Shown here one piece after another: positions 14,465 through 20,416 of a stretch of 20,416 bases of DNA. The first letter of the stretch is position 1. Each line of letters starts with the position of its first letter. The notes under the pieces were generated by a model, which saw nothing but the letters and a program-made list of their open reading frames with translations, had not been told where the DNA came from and made no database searches. The DNA comes from a virus. The stretch covers positions 1 through 20,416 of the IMG/VR virus record IMGVR_UViG_3300028129_000078; one strand, written 5' to 3'. A program made the position numbers and the translations under genes.

Positions 14465-15770
14465 CTTCTACCACCGTCCTATTTGTCGGGTAATCTGTTT
14501 TATACCCTGTTGCATCCTGTTCCTTCTCTATACGTTCAATTTCGTTCTTTGCGCTGTCTACAACAGAAAGAACTGAAAGCTGTGTTTCGCGACTCGTAAC
14601 ACCGGATAAATTCCCGGCAATTTGGCTCTCTTCAAGAATATTAGCCGGAATATTTTGTGTAAATTTATAACGAATGCCTACCCACGCATCTTTTTTCACA
14701 TCTGACAAGGGGTTACTAAAAATCAATCGGTATCTCCTGTTCATTCCAGAAGTAAACTTTCGTTCCTTTGTCTTCGCAAGATTACTCATGGCTTGCAATT
14801 TATATTTTAATGCTATACCTGAACTTGCCCCAAAGCTTTCGTCTGATATATTGGCCACCATAGAAATCTGGTATATAAGGCGTTCCAGCCTGTCAATCAA
14901 ATGCTCTTGCGTTGTATCTCCATTGGGTTTTTCCAAGAACTTAACTACAAGATTCGGCGTATCATCACCAGGAAAATTAATAATACGGTTTTCTCGTAAA
15001 GATTTTATATCTTCTTCGTCCATATCTGCTCCCAGCACAATCATATAAGCATCCGCGAAGTAATCAACATCATTCGCTTTTTCTGACAATGCTTTATTAT
15101 AGGCGTTTATCATTGGGAGGACACCTTCAAATATTCCGATGCGTTCTTCATTTTCTACGTATTCTGTTGCTGGAACACCGTCAAATCCGTGAAGCTTAGG
15201 CTCGTCCACCCATTTGTAAGAACCGTTATGAATAAAGTGCTGCACAATTCGTCCATCAGACCAGCTACCGTGTTCCACATTGTCAGCATCTAAATAATGC
15301 CTGACAAAATATAACGGCCTCTCCAAAATAGAATCATCATAGATCATGAACGCCTGCATAGGTGACAGATATGTAATTCCTATATTCCCAATTTCATCCA
15401 CATAATACATTTCATAACCGCTACCGTAAATGCTACATGTTTTTGCCAACTCTGCATTATTATCGTCCTGGTCATTATACTGATCCAAATACTCCAAATA
15501 CGCCGCCACTGCTGGCTCATCATGTGTCTCCTTGATGGGTACTCCAATAAAAAAACCATTCATGGTATCAGTAATGTATTTCGCAAAGTTTACTGCAATA
15601 CGGTTATCTGGCTTATATTCAGGCTTAGCAGCGTTATGGAGTATATCATAATCATTTTCATATGCGTCATGAAGTTTTTGATAACGTTTAGATATCTCCT
15701 GCTTATGCTTCGTCATGTATTTTCCCAGAAGCTCCGGCGTCATTGGCGTCCCCGATGGTATTTTAAACAT
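14427..15770 (-). CDS. Portal protein (SPP1 gp6-like)
   Basis: 447 aa from ATG 15768-15770, one base after the TerL stop (TAAATG), with AGGAGG inside the end of terL. Recognisable segments include YEDDYDIL-like NDYDILHNAAKPEYKPDNRI, AVNFAKYITDTMNGFFIGVP near residue 65-85, YGSGYEMYYVDEIGNIGITY, and the helix DESFGASSGIALKYKLQAMS. These are hallmarks of the Phage_prot_Gp6 portal family. It forms the dodecameric DNA entry ring at one capsid vertex and docks TerL. Length is normal for the family. The C-terminal tail is Glu/Asp-rich. Confidence 0.93.
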   Translation of the reverse strand: MFKIPSGTPMTPELLGKYMTKHKQEISKRYQKLHDAYENDYDILHNAAKPEYKPDNRIAVNFAKYITDTMNGFFIGVPIKETHDEPAVAAYLEYLDQYNDQDDNNAELAKTCSIYGSGYEMYYVDEIGNIGITYLSPMQAFMIYDDSILERPLYFVRHYLDADNVEHGSWSDGRIVQHFIHNGSYKWVDEPKLHGFDGVPATEYVENEERIGIFEGVLPMINAYNKALSEKANDVDYFADAYMIVLGADMDEEDIKSLRENRIINFPGDDTPNLVVKFLEKPNGDTTQEHLIDRLERLIYQISMVANISDESFGASSGIALKYKLQAMSNLAKTKERKFTSGMNRRYRLIFSNPLSDVKKDAWVGIRYKFTQNIPANILEESQIAGNLSGVTSRETQLSVLSVVDSAKNEIERIEKEQDATGYKTDYPTNRTVVEDGVLAEEATAIK

Positions 15771-15771
15771 T

Positions 15772-17043
15772 TTATATACCTCCTGTTACCTTCTTATATT
15801 TTGGACGTGTACTTATCTTCCTTAAAAGGCTGGCTGCACTGTCTGGGCTGTCATCATGATCAGCAAACTCATTATAGTCAAGCACTTCATTTATGTATTC
15901 TGGATCTGTATCTTCTAGCCATATGATGTTTTTCCACTCTTTCCGTAGGTATGTTGATATCTTTACAAATTTATTCATGCTTTCGTGGTACCCGGCTACA
16001 GGCAGCCCCATACTGCGAATTTCTTTTTTTAGATATCCTTTGTCTGCGTTGTCCTCGCAGTAAATGGTTCCTGCACGGAATTTTTCATGGATTTGCGCTA
16101 TCTGCGTCAAACAGTCATCCACATGCCTCTCCCAGCGCTTCCCAAGACCAATGACAGAACCGTCTTTATGCCTCTTGAAAATAGTGAATGCAGTTCCATC
16201 GCTCCCATTGTAACCAGCGTCAATGTGGGCCATTCCATCATAGATAAGGCTTTCCTCATTTGTGAATTTCGGTTCCTTGAACATAGCATCTTTATCGGCT
16301 ATATGTTTTAACTCATAATTTGCAGCGAATAAGCTGTCCGACATACTTTGACGCAAGCTTTCCAGTTTGCTCCTGCCAATAAGGCCCGTGGAATAGCAAT
16401 CATACCGTTTTACGTTTGGCATTATGGAAATTGCATCTTCTTTGTGCCAAGGTGTCCCGGTATTGATAAACCTTCCACCACGATTACAGATATTTTGCAG
16501 CTCCATGAATTGTATTTTTGTCTTTTCTCGTTCGGCTCGGCTAATTCTATCCTTTAAATTAACGATATCATCAGTCACCACAATATCAGCATGTTTACCC
16601 GTTATAGATGTCCCAATACCCAGCCCGATCACCTGAGATACGCCTTTAGCGGATACACAAAGGTTCGTATGGATTTCTGCGCCTGTTTCTTTTAACAGGT
16701 AAATATAACAGCCATACAGCGCATATGCAATCATCTGCATAATGTCAGATTTTAAAATTTTTTCGGCCTGTGTCATGACTTCTATCACGTCCGTGTCAGT
16801 CTTTCTGAAAAAAATAACATTTTCATTAGGGCAGACAACTGTGTGAATTGCAAGAAATAAAGAGAGATCCGTGGTTTTATATGAGCCACGGTGGGCAAGG
16901 AGCGTTTGGTCAGTCTTGGACAGCAAAAATGACCGAAGCCAATCGTTATGCAGCTCGGTCAAATCCTTAAATCCAACTATATGTCCTATCTTGTAAGGGA
17001 TATCCCTAACCAGTTCTAGGGCCTGTTCATAACTTAGTCCCAA
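15772..17043 (-). CDS. terL: Terminase large subunit (packaging ATPase and nuclease)
   Basis: 423 aa starting at TTG 17041-17043, seven bases after a GGAG that lies in the end of terS; the genes overlap by 17 bases. Walker A-like AHRGSYKTT is at residues 50-58 (a divergent form with Ser-Tyr-Lys-Thr-Thr), Walker B DIVVTDDI at 153-160, and a TGTPWH coupling motif at 195-200. The RNase H-like nuclease has Asp275 (HIDAGYNGSDGTAF), Glu330-Asp331 (YCEDNADKG) and the Asp-rich end ADHDDSPDSA near 395-402. It cuts and pumps DNA into the prohead through the portal. The TTG start is the only well-placed start before the conserved N-terminus. Confidence 0.92.
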   Translation of the reverse strand: MGLSYEQALELVRDIPYKIGHIVGFKDLTELHNDWLRSFLLSKTDQTLLAHRGSYKTTDLSLFLAIHTVVCPNENVIFFRKTDTDVIEVMTQAEKILKSDIMQMIAYALYGCYIYLLKETGAEIHTNLCVSAKGVSQVIGLGIGTSITGKHADIVVTDDIVNLKDRISRAEREKTKIQFMELQNICNRGGRFINTGTPWHKEDAISIMPNVKRYDCYSTGLIGRSKLESLRQSMSDSLFAANYELKHIADKDAMFKEPKFTNEESLIYDGMAHIDAGYNGSDGTAFTIFKRHKDGSVIGLGKRWERHVDDCLTQIAQIHEKFRAGTIYCEDNADKGYLKKEIRSMGLPVAGYHESMNKFVKISTYLRKEWKNIIWLEDTDPEYINEVLDYNEFADHDDSPDSAASLLRKISTRPKYKKVTGGI

Positions 17044-17533
17044 ATATGTGCTCCAATTCTTGCACCGTTTCTTGCGATGGTGTCACTTTTATATCGACCT
17101 TGTCATTCCACATGCCCAAATGTCTCCCCAGTAGCTCTAAAGCCTTCTCTTTATCATTCAGTTTTATCTCAATTCCATTAGCGCCTTCTTTGATACCAGC
17201 GATTGCCCTTACCTGTTCGTCTGTCAGTTCGTCTGTATTCTTAATCCTGACACATCCGACTTCTACCTCTGCATAGTCTGTAGCCCTTGCAAACGCAATG
17301 GCTGCCAATTCCCGGACTACTCTATCCTGAGTTACTTCTGTTCTCTCCTGCCGTTCCTCTGTGCGTTCTTGAATATAGGCCGAAACCTTAACATTTCTTA
17401 ACAGTCTGGCACCTGCAGCCGCCGCTGTCTCATCCTTCCTGCAATTCTTATAAGCTGCTTTGTAAGCCCTCGTGGCATTCAGATCCACAAGGTATTCATC
17501 GGCAAATATTTTCTGTCGTTCTGTTAATGCCAT
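17027..17533 (-). CDS. terS: Terminase small subunit (Terminase_2 family)
   Basis: 168 aa from ATG 17531-17533, eight bases after AGAGGTG. The N-terminus MALTERQKIFADEYLVDLNA and the following TRAYKAAYKNCRKDETAAAA segment are the DNA-binding helix-turn-helix region of the SPP1 G1P-like Terminase_2 family. A central coiled coil (about 70-95) mediates ring formation, and the C-terminal segment (LELLGRHLGMWNDKVDIKVT) is typical. It recognises the packaging start site, often within or near its own gene. A longer frame start at 17554 overlaps the terminator-like hairpin tail and lacks a binding site. Confidence 0.9.
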   Translation of the reverse strand: MALTERQKIFADEYLVDLNATRAYKAAYKNCRKDETAAAAGARLLRNVKVSAYIQERTEERQERTEVTQDRVVRELAAIAFARATDYAEVEVGCVRIKNTDELTDEQVRAIAGIKEGANGIEIKLNDKEKALELLGRHLGMWNDKVDIKVTPSQETVQELEHIFGTKL

Positions 17534-17557
17534 TAGACTCACCTCTTTTTGCACATT

Positions 17558-17583
17558 AAAAAGAGACGGCGCTAAACCGTCTC
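17558..17583 (-). terminator. Terminator-like hairpin in the terS leader
   Basis: On the minus strand a perfect 7-bp stem GAGACGG/CCGTCTC with loop TTTAGCG is followed at once by TTTTTAA. It lies 24 bases before the terS start codon, so an intact terminator here would stop transcription entering the late operon from upstream. It is the third such hairpin between the RNA gene promoter and terS. Confidence 0.65.
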
Positions 17584-17610
17584 ATAATCCATTACTTATA
17601 TTCTCCCATT

Positions 17611-17647
17611 TTATAAGGCTGCCGCTCTACCTCTGAGCTATATGCCT
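17611..17647 (-). pseudogene. tRNA-like 5' half (truncated)
   Basis: Minus strand reads AGGCATA, TA, GCTC AGAGGTA GAGC, G, GCAGC, then CTTATAA. This matches a tRNA through the acceptor 5' strand, U8/A9, a perfect 4-bp D-stem with a canonical AGAGGTA D-loop, the anticodon-stem 5' strand and a 7-base anticodon loop (UAU if read as anticodon). After that the match ends: no pairing 3' anticodon strand, no T-arm and no acceptor 3' strand. It cannot be a functional tRNA. It lies directly after the terminator of the acetyltransferase cassette and may be an insertion scar. Confidence 0.5.
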
Positions 17648-17650
17648 ATA

Positions 17651-17685
17651 ATAAAAGCGCCCAGCCAGTTATCTGACCAGACGCT
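17651..17685 (-). terminator. Intrinsic terminator after the GNAT gene
   Basis: Minus strand: 13-bp stem (left arm AGCGTCTGGTCAG, loop ATAA, right arm CTGGCTGGGCGCT, with several G-T pairs) followed by TTTTATTATA. Fourteen bases after the acetyltransferase stop, so it ends that cassette. Confidence 0.85.
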
Positions 17686-17699
17686 CTCTTATTATGTAT

Positions 17700-18314
17700 T
17701 TAGTTTTTTAGATATCTTAGCATTTGGACTAAATAGCCTCCACTCATAACATCAGTCTCATCTTTATCCAAATTTCTCTTGCCAAAATTCACAAATCCAT
17801 TGCTTGTATAAAAATCAATCAATTGAGGCTTGTCTTCGCATTCCAAGTATACAAACTTCCCTCCGACATCTGTTTGTATACTTTTTACTTTATCACAGGC
17901 AAGCTTCAGCAACTCATCACCTGTGATCAATTTATCGTATCCCTTATTGAAGTTTTTACCTAACTGGGCAATAAGTGGAGCAGACATGATATACCGCTTC
18001 ATGGAGACATCCGGTTGCGAAAATTTTGATATTTTCTTTTGCAATGTCTTGCTCATATTTGCTTTGTATATCATGATCACTTTTGTTACCAGTGTAAAAT
18101 ATCCTACCAGAACTAAGGTATCCTTATACGATGCAAAGACAAGATGCGTCGCTGCCCAACCCTGTTTCGCAAATACAATTGCCTTATCTCTTATATAAAA
18201 TTCGACATCCTTATTTAATGGACACGAAAAATCAGAGAGAATAGCTTTTACTCTATCCTCTCCAATTTCGCTTATCATTTCTGCTAAATTTACTTGTACA
18301 AAACCAGCTATCAT
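17700..18314 (-). CDS. GNAT-family N-acetyltransferase (possible toxin-like partner or moron enzyme)
   Basis: 204 aa; ATG 18312-18314 overlaps the stop of the small upstream gene as ATGA. The GNAT fold is suggested by a central strand (LVFASYKDTLVLVGYFTLVT), the APLIAQLGKNFNKGY motif in place of the usual acetyl-CoA motif A, a helix (DELLKLACDKVKSIQ) and the late strand-helix FVYLECEDKPQLIDFYTSNG leading to GFVNFGKR. Substrate unknown. Its coupling to a 58-aa basic protein, its own promoter and terminator, and its position outside the structural gene order resemble a toxin-antitoxin or moron cassette. Toxicity is not shown by the sequence; defence, anti-defence or protein modification are alternatives. 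Confidence 0.72.
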   Translation of the reverse strand: MIAGFVQVNLAEMISEIGEDRVKAILSDFSCPLNKDVEFYIRDKAIVFAKQGWAATHLVFASYKDTLVLVGYFTLVTKVIMIYKANMSKTLQKKISKFSQPDVSMKRYIMSAPLIAQLGKNFNKGYDKLITGDELLKLACDKVKSIQTDVGGKFVYLECEDKPQLIDFYTSNGFVNFGKRNLDKDETDVMSGGYLVQMLRYLKN

Positions 18315-18487
18315 GCTTTATCTCCAAATAGTTCTCTTATTTTTTCTCCGGAGATTTCTTTGAAGCTTCGGCTCAATTGTACATCCTTGCCTCGCCTTCC
18401 GCTAGCGTTCTCAATTGCTGACGCAAAAGTACGACAAAGTTTATTGTCTCTAATGTTTACGTCCTTAATAATGCTTTTTGTCGCCAT
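18311..18487 (-). CDS. 58-aa basic protein coupled to the GNAT gene (antitoxin-like position)
   Basis: Start ATG 18485-18487 (MATKSIIKDVNIRDNKLCRT), with AAGGGAG about nine bases upstream; the frame extends to 18556 but lacks a binding site there. The protein is basic and predicted alpha-helical: DNKLCRTFASAIENASGRRG followed by KDVQLSRSFKEISGEKIREL. I recognise no ribbon-helix-helix or HTH with certainty. Size, order before the acetyltransferase and the ATGA overlap are those of an antitoxin, but the pairing could also be an enzyme with a small partner. First gene of the two-gene cassette. Confidence 0.65.
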   Translation of the reverse strand: MATKSIIKDVNIRDNKLCRTFASAIENASGRRGKDVQLSRSFKEISGEKIRELFGDKA

Positions 18488-18620
18488 AACCCCATCTCCC
18501 TTGGCATGTGAGAGTGAAAAAAATTGCATGACAAATAAACCTATACCGTCAACCAATGTTATAATTCATATTAAATATCATGCTCTTTATTTACTTTTAG
18601 TTTATCCTCTTATAGTTTAT

Positions 18621-18648
18621 AGTATACTACGGATTTTCGAAATTGCAA
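18621..18648 (-). promoter_or_regulatory. Promoter of the GNAT cassette
   Basis: Minus strand -35 TTGCAA (18643-18648), 16-bp spacer, -10 TATACT (18621-18626) in an AT-rich stretch. It would give a leader of about 125 bases before the 58-aa gene, which suggests some leader or operator control. The only promoter-like site found for these two genes. Confidence 0.6.
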
Positions 18649-18719
18649 CCACTTTTCAATTTTATTTGATCTTTTCTAATACTATTTTATGCATTTTGAG
18701 TTACAAAATGATACCTTAT

Positions 18720-18762
18720 AATTAAATAAAACACCCTACAATAAATTGGCATAGAGTGTCTT
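18720..18762 (-). terminator. Intrinsic terminator of the structured RNA gene
   Basis: Minus strand: 11-bp stem (AAGACACTCTA with TAGGGTGTTTT, two G-T pairs), 13-base loop, then the stem's T-rich end running into ATTTAATTA. It follows the seven stem-loops and precedes the cassette promoter, so it defines the 3' end of the RNA transcript. Confidence 0.8.
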
Positions 18763-19050
18763 AATAACTTCCATATTTAAATGATACATATTGCTTACCC
18801 CGGGGGATAATCCCGGAGGTTACACAGCGCTCAGTGCACATTATGCTGTCGTACTCCCTGCCTCTCCGGTGATCCGGCGGCAGATAAGCTAATACACCGC
18901 CGTAACGGTGCTGTTATCCCAGACCTGGGACATACGGTTTAATGACTTTACCGCGGTCATTATATAGCAGTCACGCAACCCACCCCGTACTGCTCTGGCA
19001 ACCATAAGTTCCTTTCATTGCCCCAACCCATTTTTTTATATACTTCTATG
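18722..19050 (-). ncRNA. Stand-alone structured small RNA of unknown family (~330 nt)
   Basis: The transcript is bounded by a perfect sigma-A promoter and an intrinsic terminator. In 5'-3' order, paired arms (plus coordinates) are: 18986-18994/18966-18975 (9 bp, one bulge); 18956-18961/18941-18946 (6 bp); 18926-18930/18917-18921 (5 bp); 18906-18910/18895-18899 (5 bp); 18879-18883/18858-18862 enclosing 18874-18877/18866-18869; 18845-18849/18824-18828; and 18812-18820/18797-18804 (8 bp, one bulge). The region is GC-rich while its flanks are AT-rich. Frames inside are short (at most ~23 codons) and unconvincing. Not recognised as 6S, tmRNA, SRP, RNase P, GOLLD, ROOL or a riboswitch. The 3' 35 bases before the terminator are unstructured. 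Function could be trans-acting sRNA, packaging RNA or cis antitermination. Confidence 0.7.
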
Positions 19051-19056
19051 CTTCAT

Positions 19057-19085
19057 ATTATAAGTCAATCCCCACAGAATGTCAA
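19057..19085 (-). promoter_or_regulatory. Perfect consensus sigma-A promoter for the structured RNA
   Basis: Minus strand -35 TTGACA (19080-19085), exactly 17-bp spacer, -10 TATAAT (19057-19062): identical to the consensus in all twelve positions. Predicted transcription start is near 19050. It begins 24 bases after the stop of the sigma-like gene and points away from it, into the stem-loop region. Confidence 0.9.
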
Positions 19086-19108
19086 TCGTTTTATAACAAA
19101 TATATCAA

Positions 19109-19501
19109 CTAGAACACATTATTAAAATGTACCTTGCATATCTGCTCACATTCCCACATGGAAAGCCCTACCACTGCCGCCGTCTCCACGATATCGAAGC
19201 AATGTATATACCTGTAAGACAGTACAGCTTTTATGTATCCATCCGGGATAGTCTTAATATAATCGCAGGCCCTCTCAATCAGTTCCCGATTTTCCTTACG
19301 CAGCGCTGATATCATCCGTTCTATGTCAACTTTCTCTTCCACTGTTGCCATCCCGGATTGAGTCCCACCCATCCCATGAGGCATCCCATCGGACTGCACG
19401 GCAGAAATACCGTATTTACTGCATAAATCCTCGTATTTGGTCTTTAGCTGTACAAGCCTACGTTTATTCACACCTATTTGCTTCAACTCTTTCTCGGTCA
19501 T
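19109..19501 (-). CDS. Sigma-70 region 4-like phage regulator (ArpU/RinA/DUF1492-like)
   Basis: 130 aa from ATG 19499-19501, with AGGAGG about 12 bases upstream. The N-terminal third is a charged helix (RRLVQLKTKYEDLCSKYG). A Gly/Met/Ser linker (SDGMPHGMGGTQSGMATVEE) leads to a second helical region (EKVDIERMISALRKENRELI). The C-terminal ~45 residues form a helix-turn-helix (YIKAVLSYRYIHCFDIVETA then VVGLSMWECEQICKVHF), as in region 4 of sigma factors. Proteins of this plan lie just before terS in many Firmicutes phages and act as late-gene regulators. Here the RNA gene and cassette separate it from terS. Target promoter not identified. Confidence 0.75.
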   Translation of the reverse strand: MTEKELKQIGVNKRRLVQLKTKYEDLCSKYGISAVQSDGMPHGMGGTQSGMATVEEKVDIERMISALRKENRELIERACDYIKTIPDGYIKAVLSYRYIHCFDIVETAAVVGLSMWECEQICKVHFNNVF

Positions 19502-19510
19502 AGATGGGCT

Positions 19511-19798
19511 TTACCTCCTGTCTAATCGCTGAAGGAAATCATTATACTGATAACTCTCACAAGCTCCTGTTTTATGCCGGAGGAGAATGTGATGCTCATA
19601 CAGATTTACAACCTGCATCCGGCGGCTTACCTTGACAATCCGTCTTCCATCGTCTTTTACCTCCACTTTTATGTACACAATATCTCCGCGCTTTACTCCG
19701 TACCGCTTTTCTCGCGCCCTTATATTCTCCTCCCGCCTGATTGCGGGCAATGCTTGCTCGTATGTAGGGTCCGGGCAACCTGATCCGTTTTTTATCAT
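19511..19798 (-). CDS. 95-aa basic phage protein of unknown function
   Basis: ATG 19796-19798 overlaps the zinc-ribbon stop as ATGA; AAAGGAG lies eight bases before. The protein begins MIKNGSGCPDPTYEQALPAI, has a very basic helix (REENIRAREKRYGVKRG), then a beta-rich part (DIVYIKVEVKDDGRRIVKVS, MQVVNLYEHHILLRHKTGAC) ending ESYQYNDFLQRLDRR. The C-terminal part resembles a small beta-barrel binding RNA or DNA, but I cannot name it. Similar 'GCPDPTYEQAL' proteins occur before the late regulator in Clostridia phages from memory. Ends nine bases before the sigma-like gene. Confidence 0.75.
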   Translation of the reverse strand: MIKNGSGCPDPTYEQALPAIRREENIRAREKRYGVKRGDIVYIKVEVKDDGRRIVKVSRRMQVVNLYEHHILLRHKTGACESYQYNDFLQRLDRR

Positions 19799-19989
19799 CT
19801 ATCTTTCTCCTTTCTAGGTATTCCAAAACTGTCATTTTTCCGCGTCCTTATGTCCTCCCAGAAATTTTCTATGGTTTTAAATCGGTATCCGCAGGTTTGA
19901 CACTGCCTCCGCCTCAATACTGCAAAACCGTCTAAGCTCTCCTCTGTATCCGTTACCTGCGTTTTGCCGCCGCATTTCTTGCACTTCAT
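19795..19989 (-). CDS. NrdR-like zinc-ribbon protein without ATP-cone
   Basis: 64 aa from ATG 19987-19989, which overlaps the upstream stop as ATGA; the longer frame start at 20028 was rejected because it runs into that gene. It starts MKCKKCGGKTQVTDTEESLD, and a second pair follows in RRRQCQTCGYRFKTIE, giving four cysteines in two CxxC pairs plus the basic arm and F-T-x-E end of the NrdR N-terminal zinc ribbon. Host NrdR (about 150 aa) represses ribonucleotide reductase and has an ATP-cone, which is absent here. Likely a phage DNA-binding protein of unknown target. Confidence 0.8.
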   Translation of the reverse strand: MKCKKCGGKTQVTDTEESLDGFAVLRRRQCQTCGYRFKTIENFWEDIRTRKNDSFGIPRKEKDR

Positions 19990-20267
19990 GACTCGCCTTT
20001 CTCTTTCTCGCCGTTTTCCAATAGCCACTGGAACACCAGACGGTTTGCAATATGTGTAAAACCTATAAGGTCTGTATCATCACCGGTTATTCCAATATAT
20101 AGGAGATGTACTGCCATAATCATTGCAGTAAAGTCATCTGTAAGGTTCTCCTCTTCCAGTTCTATTTTGGGCATTTCCGTTCCTTCTCTTTCATCTACAT
20201 CTAAATATAAGTCTCTCAATGCTGTCGCAAACTTTTCTACTCTTTTATTAAACTCATTTTCATTCAT
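19986..20267 (-). CDS. 93-aa acidic phage protein of unknown function
   Basis: ATG 20265-20267 with AAAGGA about nine bases upstream. The protein begins MNENEFNKRVEKFATALRDL, is strongly acidic (EMPKIELEEENLTDDF) and then helical with a hydrophobic stretch (AMIMAVHLLYIGITGDDTDL). It has no clear membrane segment or motif. First certain gene of the coupled chain 93-aa / zinc ribbon / 95-aa. I do not recognise a family. Confidence 0.72.
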   Translation of the reverse strand: MNENEFNKRVEKFATALRDLYLDVDEREGTEMPKIELEEENLTDDFTAMIMAVHLLYIGITGDDTDLIGFTHIANRLVFQWLLENGEKEKGES

Positions 20268-20291
20268 TTTTATTTTCCTTTCACAATTCTT

Positions 20292-20384
20292 TTATCTTTT
20301 CACCACAGTTTCATCACATTTTCCCGGTATAGTAATACTCAACAAAGGGCGATAACCTTTTTCATATAGACTTTTCTTTTTCAT
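20292..20384 (-). CDS. Possible 30-codon ORF behind a hairpin
   Basis: Frame from ATG 20382-20384 to TAA 20292-20294, reading MKKKSLYEKGYRPLLSITIP and ten more residues. An AGGAGG lies 24 bases before the ATG, too far for normal use, but a 6-bp GCCGGG/CCCGGC hairpin (20388-20407) sits exactly between the two and could bring them together. No family recognised. It could instead be non-coding sequence after an upstream gene that ends outside the window. Confidence 0.3.
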   Translation of the reverse strand: MKKKSLYEKGYRPLLSITIPGKCDETVVKR

Positions 20385-20416
20385 ACTGCCGGGCCTGCTG
20401 ACCCGGCCCTCCTACT

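Follow-up and report, generated by a model that had tools for sequence, protein, structure and literature searches.

A modular, structured leader RNA in the late region of Lachnospiraceae phages, a candidate for cis-acting antitermination

Introduction

What is the structured stretch that stands behind a perfect promoter, shortly before the packaging genes, in the phage genome fragment IMGVR_UViG_3300028129_000078 (20,416 nt, hereafter the window)? An earlier note took it for a self-contained small RNA gene, constitutively expressed, and offered a packaging-linked RNA or a cis-acting RNA like put of phage HK022 as other possibilities. Our analysis points instead to a promoter-proximal leader of the late genes, a shortened member of a modular RNA family. 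RNA antiterminators named in the accounts drawn on here are few: put, EAR, canT and conAn2, the last as the RNA half of a pair (PMC11658703, PMC9378689, PMC8955417).

Results

Promoter, structured RNA and terminator

Promoter, stem-loops and terminator lie in the order first described, all on the minus strand (Table 1). The promoter, TTGACA-17-TATAAT, does match consensus at 12 of 12 positions; it is the sole 12/12 site in a promoter scan of 15000–20416, and about 0.02 perfect promoters would be expected by chance per window of like composition (16–18 spacing, both strands). Its -35 element and spacer are identical in three relatives (L009, L013 and L019; L numbers label loci and G numbers genomes), and the -10 differs in close kin (TATACT in L013, TAAAAT in L019). 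Constitutive expression is a proposal of the earlier note; activator-type late promoters occupy the same place in several relatives, as judged by eye. Direct repeats about 10–11 bp apart lie 5' of an extended -10 in L014, L015, L046, L052, L053, L069, L070, L073 and L074 (by eye), and are perhaps the sites of the late regulator.

The predicted transcript (18724–19050) has a folding energy of -102.6 kcal/mol; 100 dinucleotide shuffles gave a mean of -91.75 ± 4.85 (z = -2.24), and one of them was as low. Its minimum-free-energy (MFE) structure has ten hairpin loops, terminator counted, in keeping with the at least seven stem-loops proposed, and the proposed terminator with its T-rich tail is recovered by folding. 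As a single-sequence fold the leader is mildly unusual; the comparative evidence is stronger.

The impression that no convincing protein frame exists held up: no ORF of at least 50 aa lies inside 18726–19108, stops are present in all three frames of the transcript and relatives carry tRNA insertions, which together rule out a protein-coding reading. The cmscan search against Rfam that the note had suggested agrees with its failure to recognize a known class, giving no family at gathering score in the whole window; at E ≤ 5 in 18550–19150 there were two snoRNA matches alone, far under their cut-offs, and no known Rfam class was matched in scans of the window and relatives. ARAGORN and the Rfam tRNA model found no tRNA or tmRNA in the window; tRNAs exist in relatives.

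Table 1. Features of the leader and its surroundings in the window, in the direction of transcription
Feature	Position	Strand	Evidence or remark
Late transcriptional regulator	19109..19501	-	phrog_36, E 1.4e-11; just 5' of promoter
Late promoter TTGACA-17-TATAAT	19057..19085	-	12/12 match; directly 3' of late-regulator gene
Predicted leader RNA, ~327 nt	18724..19050	-	fold z -2.24; no ORF; homologues; start site ~19050 inferred
Junction of 5' deletion	19030..19032	-	~180 nt of L009 absent (CCUCC motif, A hairpin, next domain); BLAST and MAFFT
Module B hairpin (GGGGCAAUG..GGUUGCC)	18997..19024	-	few-mismatch pattern in L006, L009, L014, L016, L017, L018, L021
Module B second hairpin	18966..18994	-	folds; L006 and L009 retain the sequence
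Module C outer stem GCGGU..ACCGU	18935..18956	-	one pair G-C to A-U in L002, L017, L035
Module C hairpin UCCCA-GGUC-UGGGA	18917..18930	-	100% of cells paired, 13 sequences; changes one-sided
Module C hairpin GCACCGU-UACG-GCGGUGU	18894..18911	-	UUCG/UACG loop exchange among relatives; top pair UG/UA/CG
Empty tRNA slot, GUAUUA remnant of L009-type tRNA-Arg 3' end and flank	18890..18895	-	~87 nt missing by alignment
3' domain with modules D and E, closing stem GCUUA/UAAGC	18793..18889	-	98.1% of cells paired, 10 sequences; one A-U to G-C exchange
Predicted terminator T1	18724..18762	-	12 pairs, -11.6 kcal/mol, U-rich end, by folding; unlisted by terminator scanner
Putative cargo promoter TTGCAA-16-TATACT	18621..18648	-	9/12; such sites arise by chance
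Cargo: phrog_3291 small protein and acetyltransferase (phrog_1758)	17700..18484	-	profile matches
Predicted terminator T2	17648..17688	-	16 pairs, -22.9 kcal/mol by folding; unlisted by scanner
Truncated tRNA-Ile, 5' part only	17611..17646	-	between predicted T2 and T3, just before TerS; intact in L002, L008, L017, L035
Predicted terminator T3	17555..17583	-	scanner-listed; ~20 nt ahead of likely TerS ATG (17533)
Terminase small subunit (TerS)	17027..17554	-	Pfam Terminase_2, E 2.1e-37; phrog_51

A modular family of Lachnospiraceae phages

By BLAST one phage record was matched, Blautia phage Montmirail, reported as a prophage that was induced in the OMM12 consortium, its host there being B. 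coccoides strain YL58, according to the part of that report drawn on here (PMC10197239). DNA patterns revealed further relatives in IMG/VR, in Blautia parvula and in one Eubacteriales metagenome-assembled genome. The relatives are phages or prophages of Blautia and other Lachnospiraceae, in which the element follows the late-regulator gene and precedes terminase, HNH or cargo genes. Family members are modular and estimated at about 140–940 nt: a full copy runs from promoter through CCUCC motif, A hairpin, variable inserts, module C, tRNA slot and (in some) modules D/E to the terminator, and many members are little beyond CCUCC, hairpin and terminator. Module C is found in 17 loci (L002, L006–L009, L011, L013–L021, L035 and the window); outside this count are L003–L005, which duplicate the window, L023, a duplicate of L002, and L024, which overlaps L021.

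Alignment with L009, the nearest full relative, which shares the promoter and upstream DNA of the window and has a 5' hairpin domain and a tRNA, indicates that the window copy is a deletion form of this modular family. The CCUCC motif and the 12-bp hairpin with its GUCACA-like loop are absent from it by deletion relative to L009; it is a family member by descent because modules B, C, D and E are present, and it lies where members with the A hairpin lie, between late regulator and terminase or cargo. The A-less form also occurs in L003, L004 and L005, which are 99.96–100% identical to the window where aligned; because four records carry it, the deletion form marks a single phage lineage, as opposed to an error in one record.

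A model of the A hairpin matched 22 of 397 genomes of the Lachnospiraceae (the family of Blautia parvula) at E ≤ 0.01; by eye, 14 of these are real or probable (13 if the odd L051 is left out), seven are chance and one is a different tandem array. Across 378 phylum-wide genomes at E ≤ 0.001, the two matches were B. parvula (G001) and one coding-looking place, and Lachnospiraceae phages look to be the centre of the A-hairpin group. The A hairpin is commoner than modules C and D/E: in the 397 genomes the module C model gave four matches (G001 and G275 real, L077 and L078 coding-looking) and the D/E model four, all chance by eye. Searched as patterns in genome contigs, module C was present in two genomes and module E in none, and 72,556 plasmid records gave no match. 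Loci L010 and L012, which carry no further module, were dropped as chance, and 17 of the 19 pattern loci L026–L044 were dropped, a further module being present in L031 and L035 alone. A literature search judged by title and the opening of the abstract found no description of this RNA; the family is apparently undescribed, structured phage leader RNAs being already known as a kind.

Conservation as RNA

The family core comprises the CCUCC motif and the 12-bp A hairpin. Compensatory changes in homologues, which the earlier note had named as a check, are present in this hairpin, itself missing from the window: across 31 distinct sequences 98.1% of cells are paired and double changes fall at 11 of the 12 pairs (29 cells), values that none of 500 shuffles reached by any measure, in a set that is biased to pairing because part of it was fetched with a model of the same hairpin. 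The 13 pattern-found sequences are 98.7% paired with one doubly changed pair (5 cells), as many pairs being reached by 409 of 500 shuffles and as many cells by none. For the larger alignment, 20 of 30 places found with the model were kept, including L051 and L049 despite their odd settings; L045 (the same as L016) and L056 and L072 (tandem array) were set aside, and L058 and L061–L066 were dropped as chance by eye. At L047 (the same place as L076) the GGAC loop is kept and the stem letters differ (by eye). Of 36 loci, 22 have the CCUCC motif 5' of the hairpin; in 1000 mononucleotide shuffles the mean was 0.85 and the maximum 4.

The same check gives less for module C. Its cells are 92.3% paired with seven doubly changed, of which four come from L017 and L035, where the hairpin is unrelated, and three from one pair; a control slid to -3 likewise reaches seven cells (four pairs), and the covariation of module C is weaker than its totals. 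Modules D/E are 98.1% paired with little variation (one doubly changed pair, four cells; 11 of 500 shuffles as high). Taken as a whole, the RNA family looks solid.

Some further features were seen in passing. The hairpin loop of D/E (18834–18839 in the window) holds the palindrome GUGCAC in 7 of 10 copies, GGAGCUCC in L006 and L020 and GUACAC in L019; such a palindromic loop could permit kissing of two RNAs. The CCUCC(U)UUG of the A module is boxA-like in look. No rRNA was found in the Blautia genome searched for a comparison with rRNA leaders. A boxA string like that of B. subtilis occurs at four places with no rRNA seen beside any, and a boxA-like TGCTCTTTGAAAACTGAATAAAG stands near base 1500 of L087 in Blautia parvula, again with no rRNA seen adjoining. 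On the reverse complement of L056, six hairpins spaced 75–85 bp (1446–1851) and a similar one at 2201 carry GUGUCACAGC-like loops, in an array that adjoins phage repressor-like genes (all by eye).

The tRNA slot

ARAGORN called a tRNA in the slot of 8 of the 17 module-C loci: Asn in L002, L006 and L008, Arg in L009, Val in L011, Pro in L016 (extending into the preceding hairpin), and undefined in L017 and L035. Uncalled tRNA-like sequences fill it in L014, L021 and L019, six loci have it empty (the window, L007, L013, L015, L018 and L020), and most loci without module C show no tRNA. The slot tRNA-Asn is 97% identical over 60 nt to two chromosomal places. In single-sequence folds L014, L016 and L055 form a cloverleaf with a 9-bp acceptor stem and a short anticodon loop. 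Sequences from L011, L047 and L067 align to these forms, with no cloverleaf in their MFE structures, and the tRNA-like form of L019 has no anticodon arm (by eye).

Terminators, regulator and cargo

On the minus strand 3' of the leader come cargo, then TerS, TerL, portal, major head and tape-measure proteins; beyond this position 5' of terS we found no tie that would make the RNA packaging-linked. Three predicted terminators (T1, T2 and T3) separate the window promoter from terS, with no space for a promoter between T3 and terS, and since T2 and T3 stand ahead of the window terS, transcription from an upstream promoter must pass terminators. T2-like sequence recurs in L002, L007, L008, L017, L018, L019 and L035. 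An intact tRNA-Ile starts 4 nt past the UUUU of T2 in the four loci that have it, and terS starts 27 nt (L013), 35 nt (L015) or 31–40 nt by start codon (L025) after the leader terminator; because terS or tRNA-Ile begins just past a terminator in these relatives, read-through is needed.

An ORF of 102–176 aa ends 8–165 nt 5' of the A hairpin in 34 of 36 loci, about 32 of them regulator-like by eye. Among ten regulators profiled, nine match phrog_36 (L055 weakly) and that of L025 matches phrog_1558, of unknown function; the upstream regulator of L055 (1656–2156, minus strand) matches phrog_1558, with weak matches to phrog_36 and to the Q-like antiterminator phrog_79 (E 0.0019). The gene after the leader is terS in L013, L015, L025 and L073 and HNH in L008, L011, L047 and L068.

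Behind the leader terminator lies a hot spot for cargo, including PtuA of Septu (L006, PADLOC E 1e-150), TIR proteins (L017; L059 weakly), SocA/Panacea (L002) and ParA-like ATPases (L014 and L057); cargo of L009 and L048 had no match and that of L016 matched weakly. A C-rich arm (like CCCCCAATACATTTTT) that precedes the cargo terminator in L016, L017, L020, L048, L050 and L002 is complementary to the cargo ribosome-binding site (RBS). Scored for the upstream arm against mononucleotide shuffles, this complementarity gave p ≤ 0.05 in 5 of 15 loci, p ≤ 0.062 in 9 and p ≥ 0.2 in 6. A read-through transcript could thereby mask the cargo RBS, which the cargo's own transcript would leave free.

Discussion

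We read the element as a cis-acting antitermination leader placed before the late genes in temperate phages of Lachnospiraceae, at a probability of roughly 0.42 and with a mechanism that we infer. This reading is favoured because the layout is that of operons run by processive antiterminators (canT and conAn). Polymerase starting upstream would read through the predicted terminators to reach terS, and the nascent leader, chiefly through its A module of CCUCC and hairpin, would act in cis to render the enzyme terminator-resistant. Cargo between the terminators could remain under its own promoter in the lysogen, and a tRNA or tRNA-like structure would occupy a tolerated slot and be made late. 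The earlier suggestion of a put-like cis-acting RNA thus survives as the leading reading in its cis-acting part, whereas the short two-stem-loop form of put is not what we find.

The chief objection is that the window lineage is without A, the module common to the other complete copies found. Because the window has neither the A module nor a tRNA, activity of this copy would be doubtful, or would depend on the modules that are left or the regulator protein; and because the A-less lineage occurs in four records, either A is dispensable or the lineage is defective. The terminators between promoter and terS are predictions and may be leaky, a Q-like protein may do the antitermination work, and the antitermination reading leaves the tRNA slot unexplained. 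Tentatively, and with more doubt than belief, we propose that the family might constitute a new class of phage RNA-driven processive antiterminator, with a core of C-rich motif and one hairpin, swapping of modules and a slot that has turned captured host tRNAs into mimics without a usable anticodon.

Antitermination could also be imagined as driven by protein, in the manner of lambda pR'-6S-tR', with the regulator or another phage protein loading on polymerase at the promoter and the RNA left as a by-product and tRNA carrier. The regulator gene directly 5' of the promoter, as Q is to pR', would suit this, as would a perfect promoter and terminator resembling pR'-tR', an RNA body whose length varies widely and which in the window does without module A, and the weak Q-like match of the L055 regulator. 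We nevertheless consider it unlikely: pairing of the A hairpin is kept through many compensatory changes, needless for a by-product, and the regulators match transcription-regulator and, weakly, sigma-factor profiles, which together with the activator-like promoter repeats (by eye) indicates control of initiation. The same pairing-preserving double changes, with the fixed strand, the position 3' of a promoter and the UUCG/UACG exchange, are features of RNA and make it very improbable that the locus is kept as DNA, whether as a cos/pac site or as an insertion hot spot for cargo, for all that it lies 5' of terS or HNH and that cargo varies at the spot.

Two further readings start from the tRNA slot. 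A trans-acting large phage RNA of GOLLD/ROOL type, abundant late and perhaps self-assembling, with a tRNA in its variable region, would fit the phage location and modular structure, the tRNAs called in 8 of 17 slots and tRNA-like sequences in three more, and the GUGCAC palindromes of the D/E loops; in GOLLD, too, tRNAs sometimes lie in the linker, by the account available (PMC12286853). Many members (CCUCC, hairpin and terminator) are too small for a cage, no ROOL (RF03087) match was obtained at E ≤ 10 in 13 records, a search that left its control genomes without a match as well, and the Rfam matches of the window and relatives include neither ROOL nor GOLLD, in scans run without a positive control; we regard this reading as distinctly unlikely. 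Alternatively, the phage might use the locus to supply a late tRNA or a mimic (for synthetases, anticodon nucleases or RNase P), the remainder being scaffold. The tRNA-Asn so similar to two chromosomal places and the odd tRNAs, with 9-bp-acceptor cloverleafs in L014, L016 and L055 (single-sequence folds) and no anticodon arm in L019 (by eye), speak for such a role, which is still quite improbable given a slot that is empty in 6 of the 17 loci with module C, including the window, and the lack of any tRNA shown in most loci without module C.

A late-gene leader with such strong covariation is a specific candidate, open to test, for one more RNA antiterminator. Since the cargo hot spot carries defence and toxin-antitoxin-like genes, control of it bears on how prophage cargo is expressed without disturbing lytic growth. 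The slot occupants, from intact tRNA-Asn to structures without a normal anticodon arm, offer a natural series for the joining of a tRNA to a larger RNA.

Among known systems, the late region of lambda is laid out as regulator gene Q, pR', a short terminated 6S leader, tR' and late genes. The family resembles it, and nut, in its regulator gene, promoter and terminated leader and in having a hairpin after a linear motif, an arrangement like boxA-boxB; unlike in lambda, the genes and hosts are other ones and the motif is boxA-like in look. GOLLD and ROOL exceed about 500 nt (the ROOL model has 574 positions and many GOLLD RNAs are longer than 800 nt), whereas the window RNA has 327 nt and family members, at about 140–940 nt, vary strongly in length down to little over one hairpin. 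They also differ in that no Rfam RNA model was matched here, GOLLD presumably having its model in the library; nor did the Rfam scans return EAR, which we take to be in Rfam as well. What is shared with GOLLD and ROOL, as these are portrayed in the account available, is large structured phage RNA near tRNAs, with a tRNA sometimes inside (PMC12286853).

Closer likenesses are those of RNAs at the head of operons. Like HK022 put, which acts in cis without a phage protein, the element is a phage leader RNA with stem-loops 3' of a promoter; unlike put, described as about 70 nt with two stem-loops in the early operons of a lambdoid coliphage (PMC9378689), the window RNA has nearly five times that length, and what family members share as their core is a single 12-bp hairpin with the C-rich CCUCC motif. 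conAn2 (of pLS20) and EAR are likewise RNAs at the start of long Gram-positive operons with internal terminators, conAn at the start of one with more than 20; conAn2 differs in working with the protein ConAn1, and the likeness, as far as that source describes these RNAs, is one of layout (PMC8955417). canT, a 452-nt structured RNA of the conjugative element Tn916, has demonstrated activity and, in the portion of its report drawn on here, no mention of tRNA modules, in contrast to the phage family (PMC11658703). It is nevertheless alike in layout, as a long structured RNA that opens a long operon of a Gram-positive mobile element with several terminators after it (PMC11658703). By prediction, the window has this layout of a processive antiterminator from end to end: promoter, RNA, T1, cargo, T2, T3 and terS.
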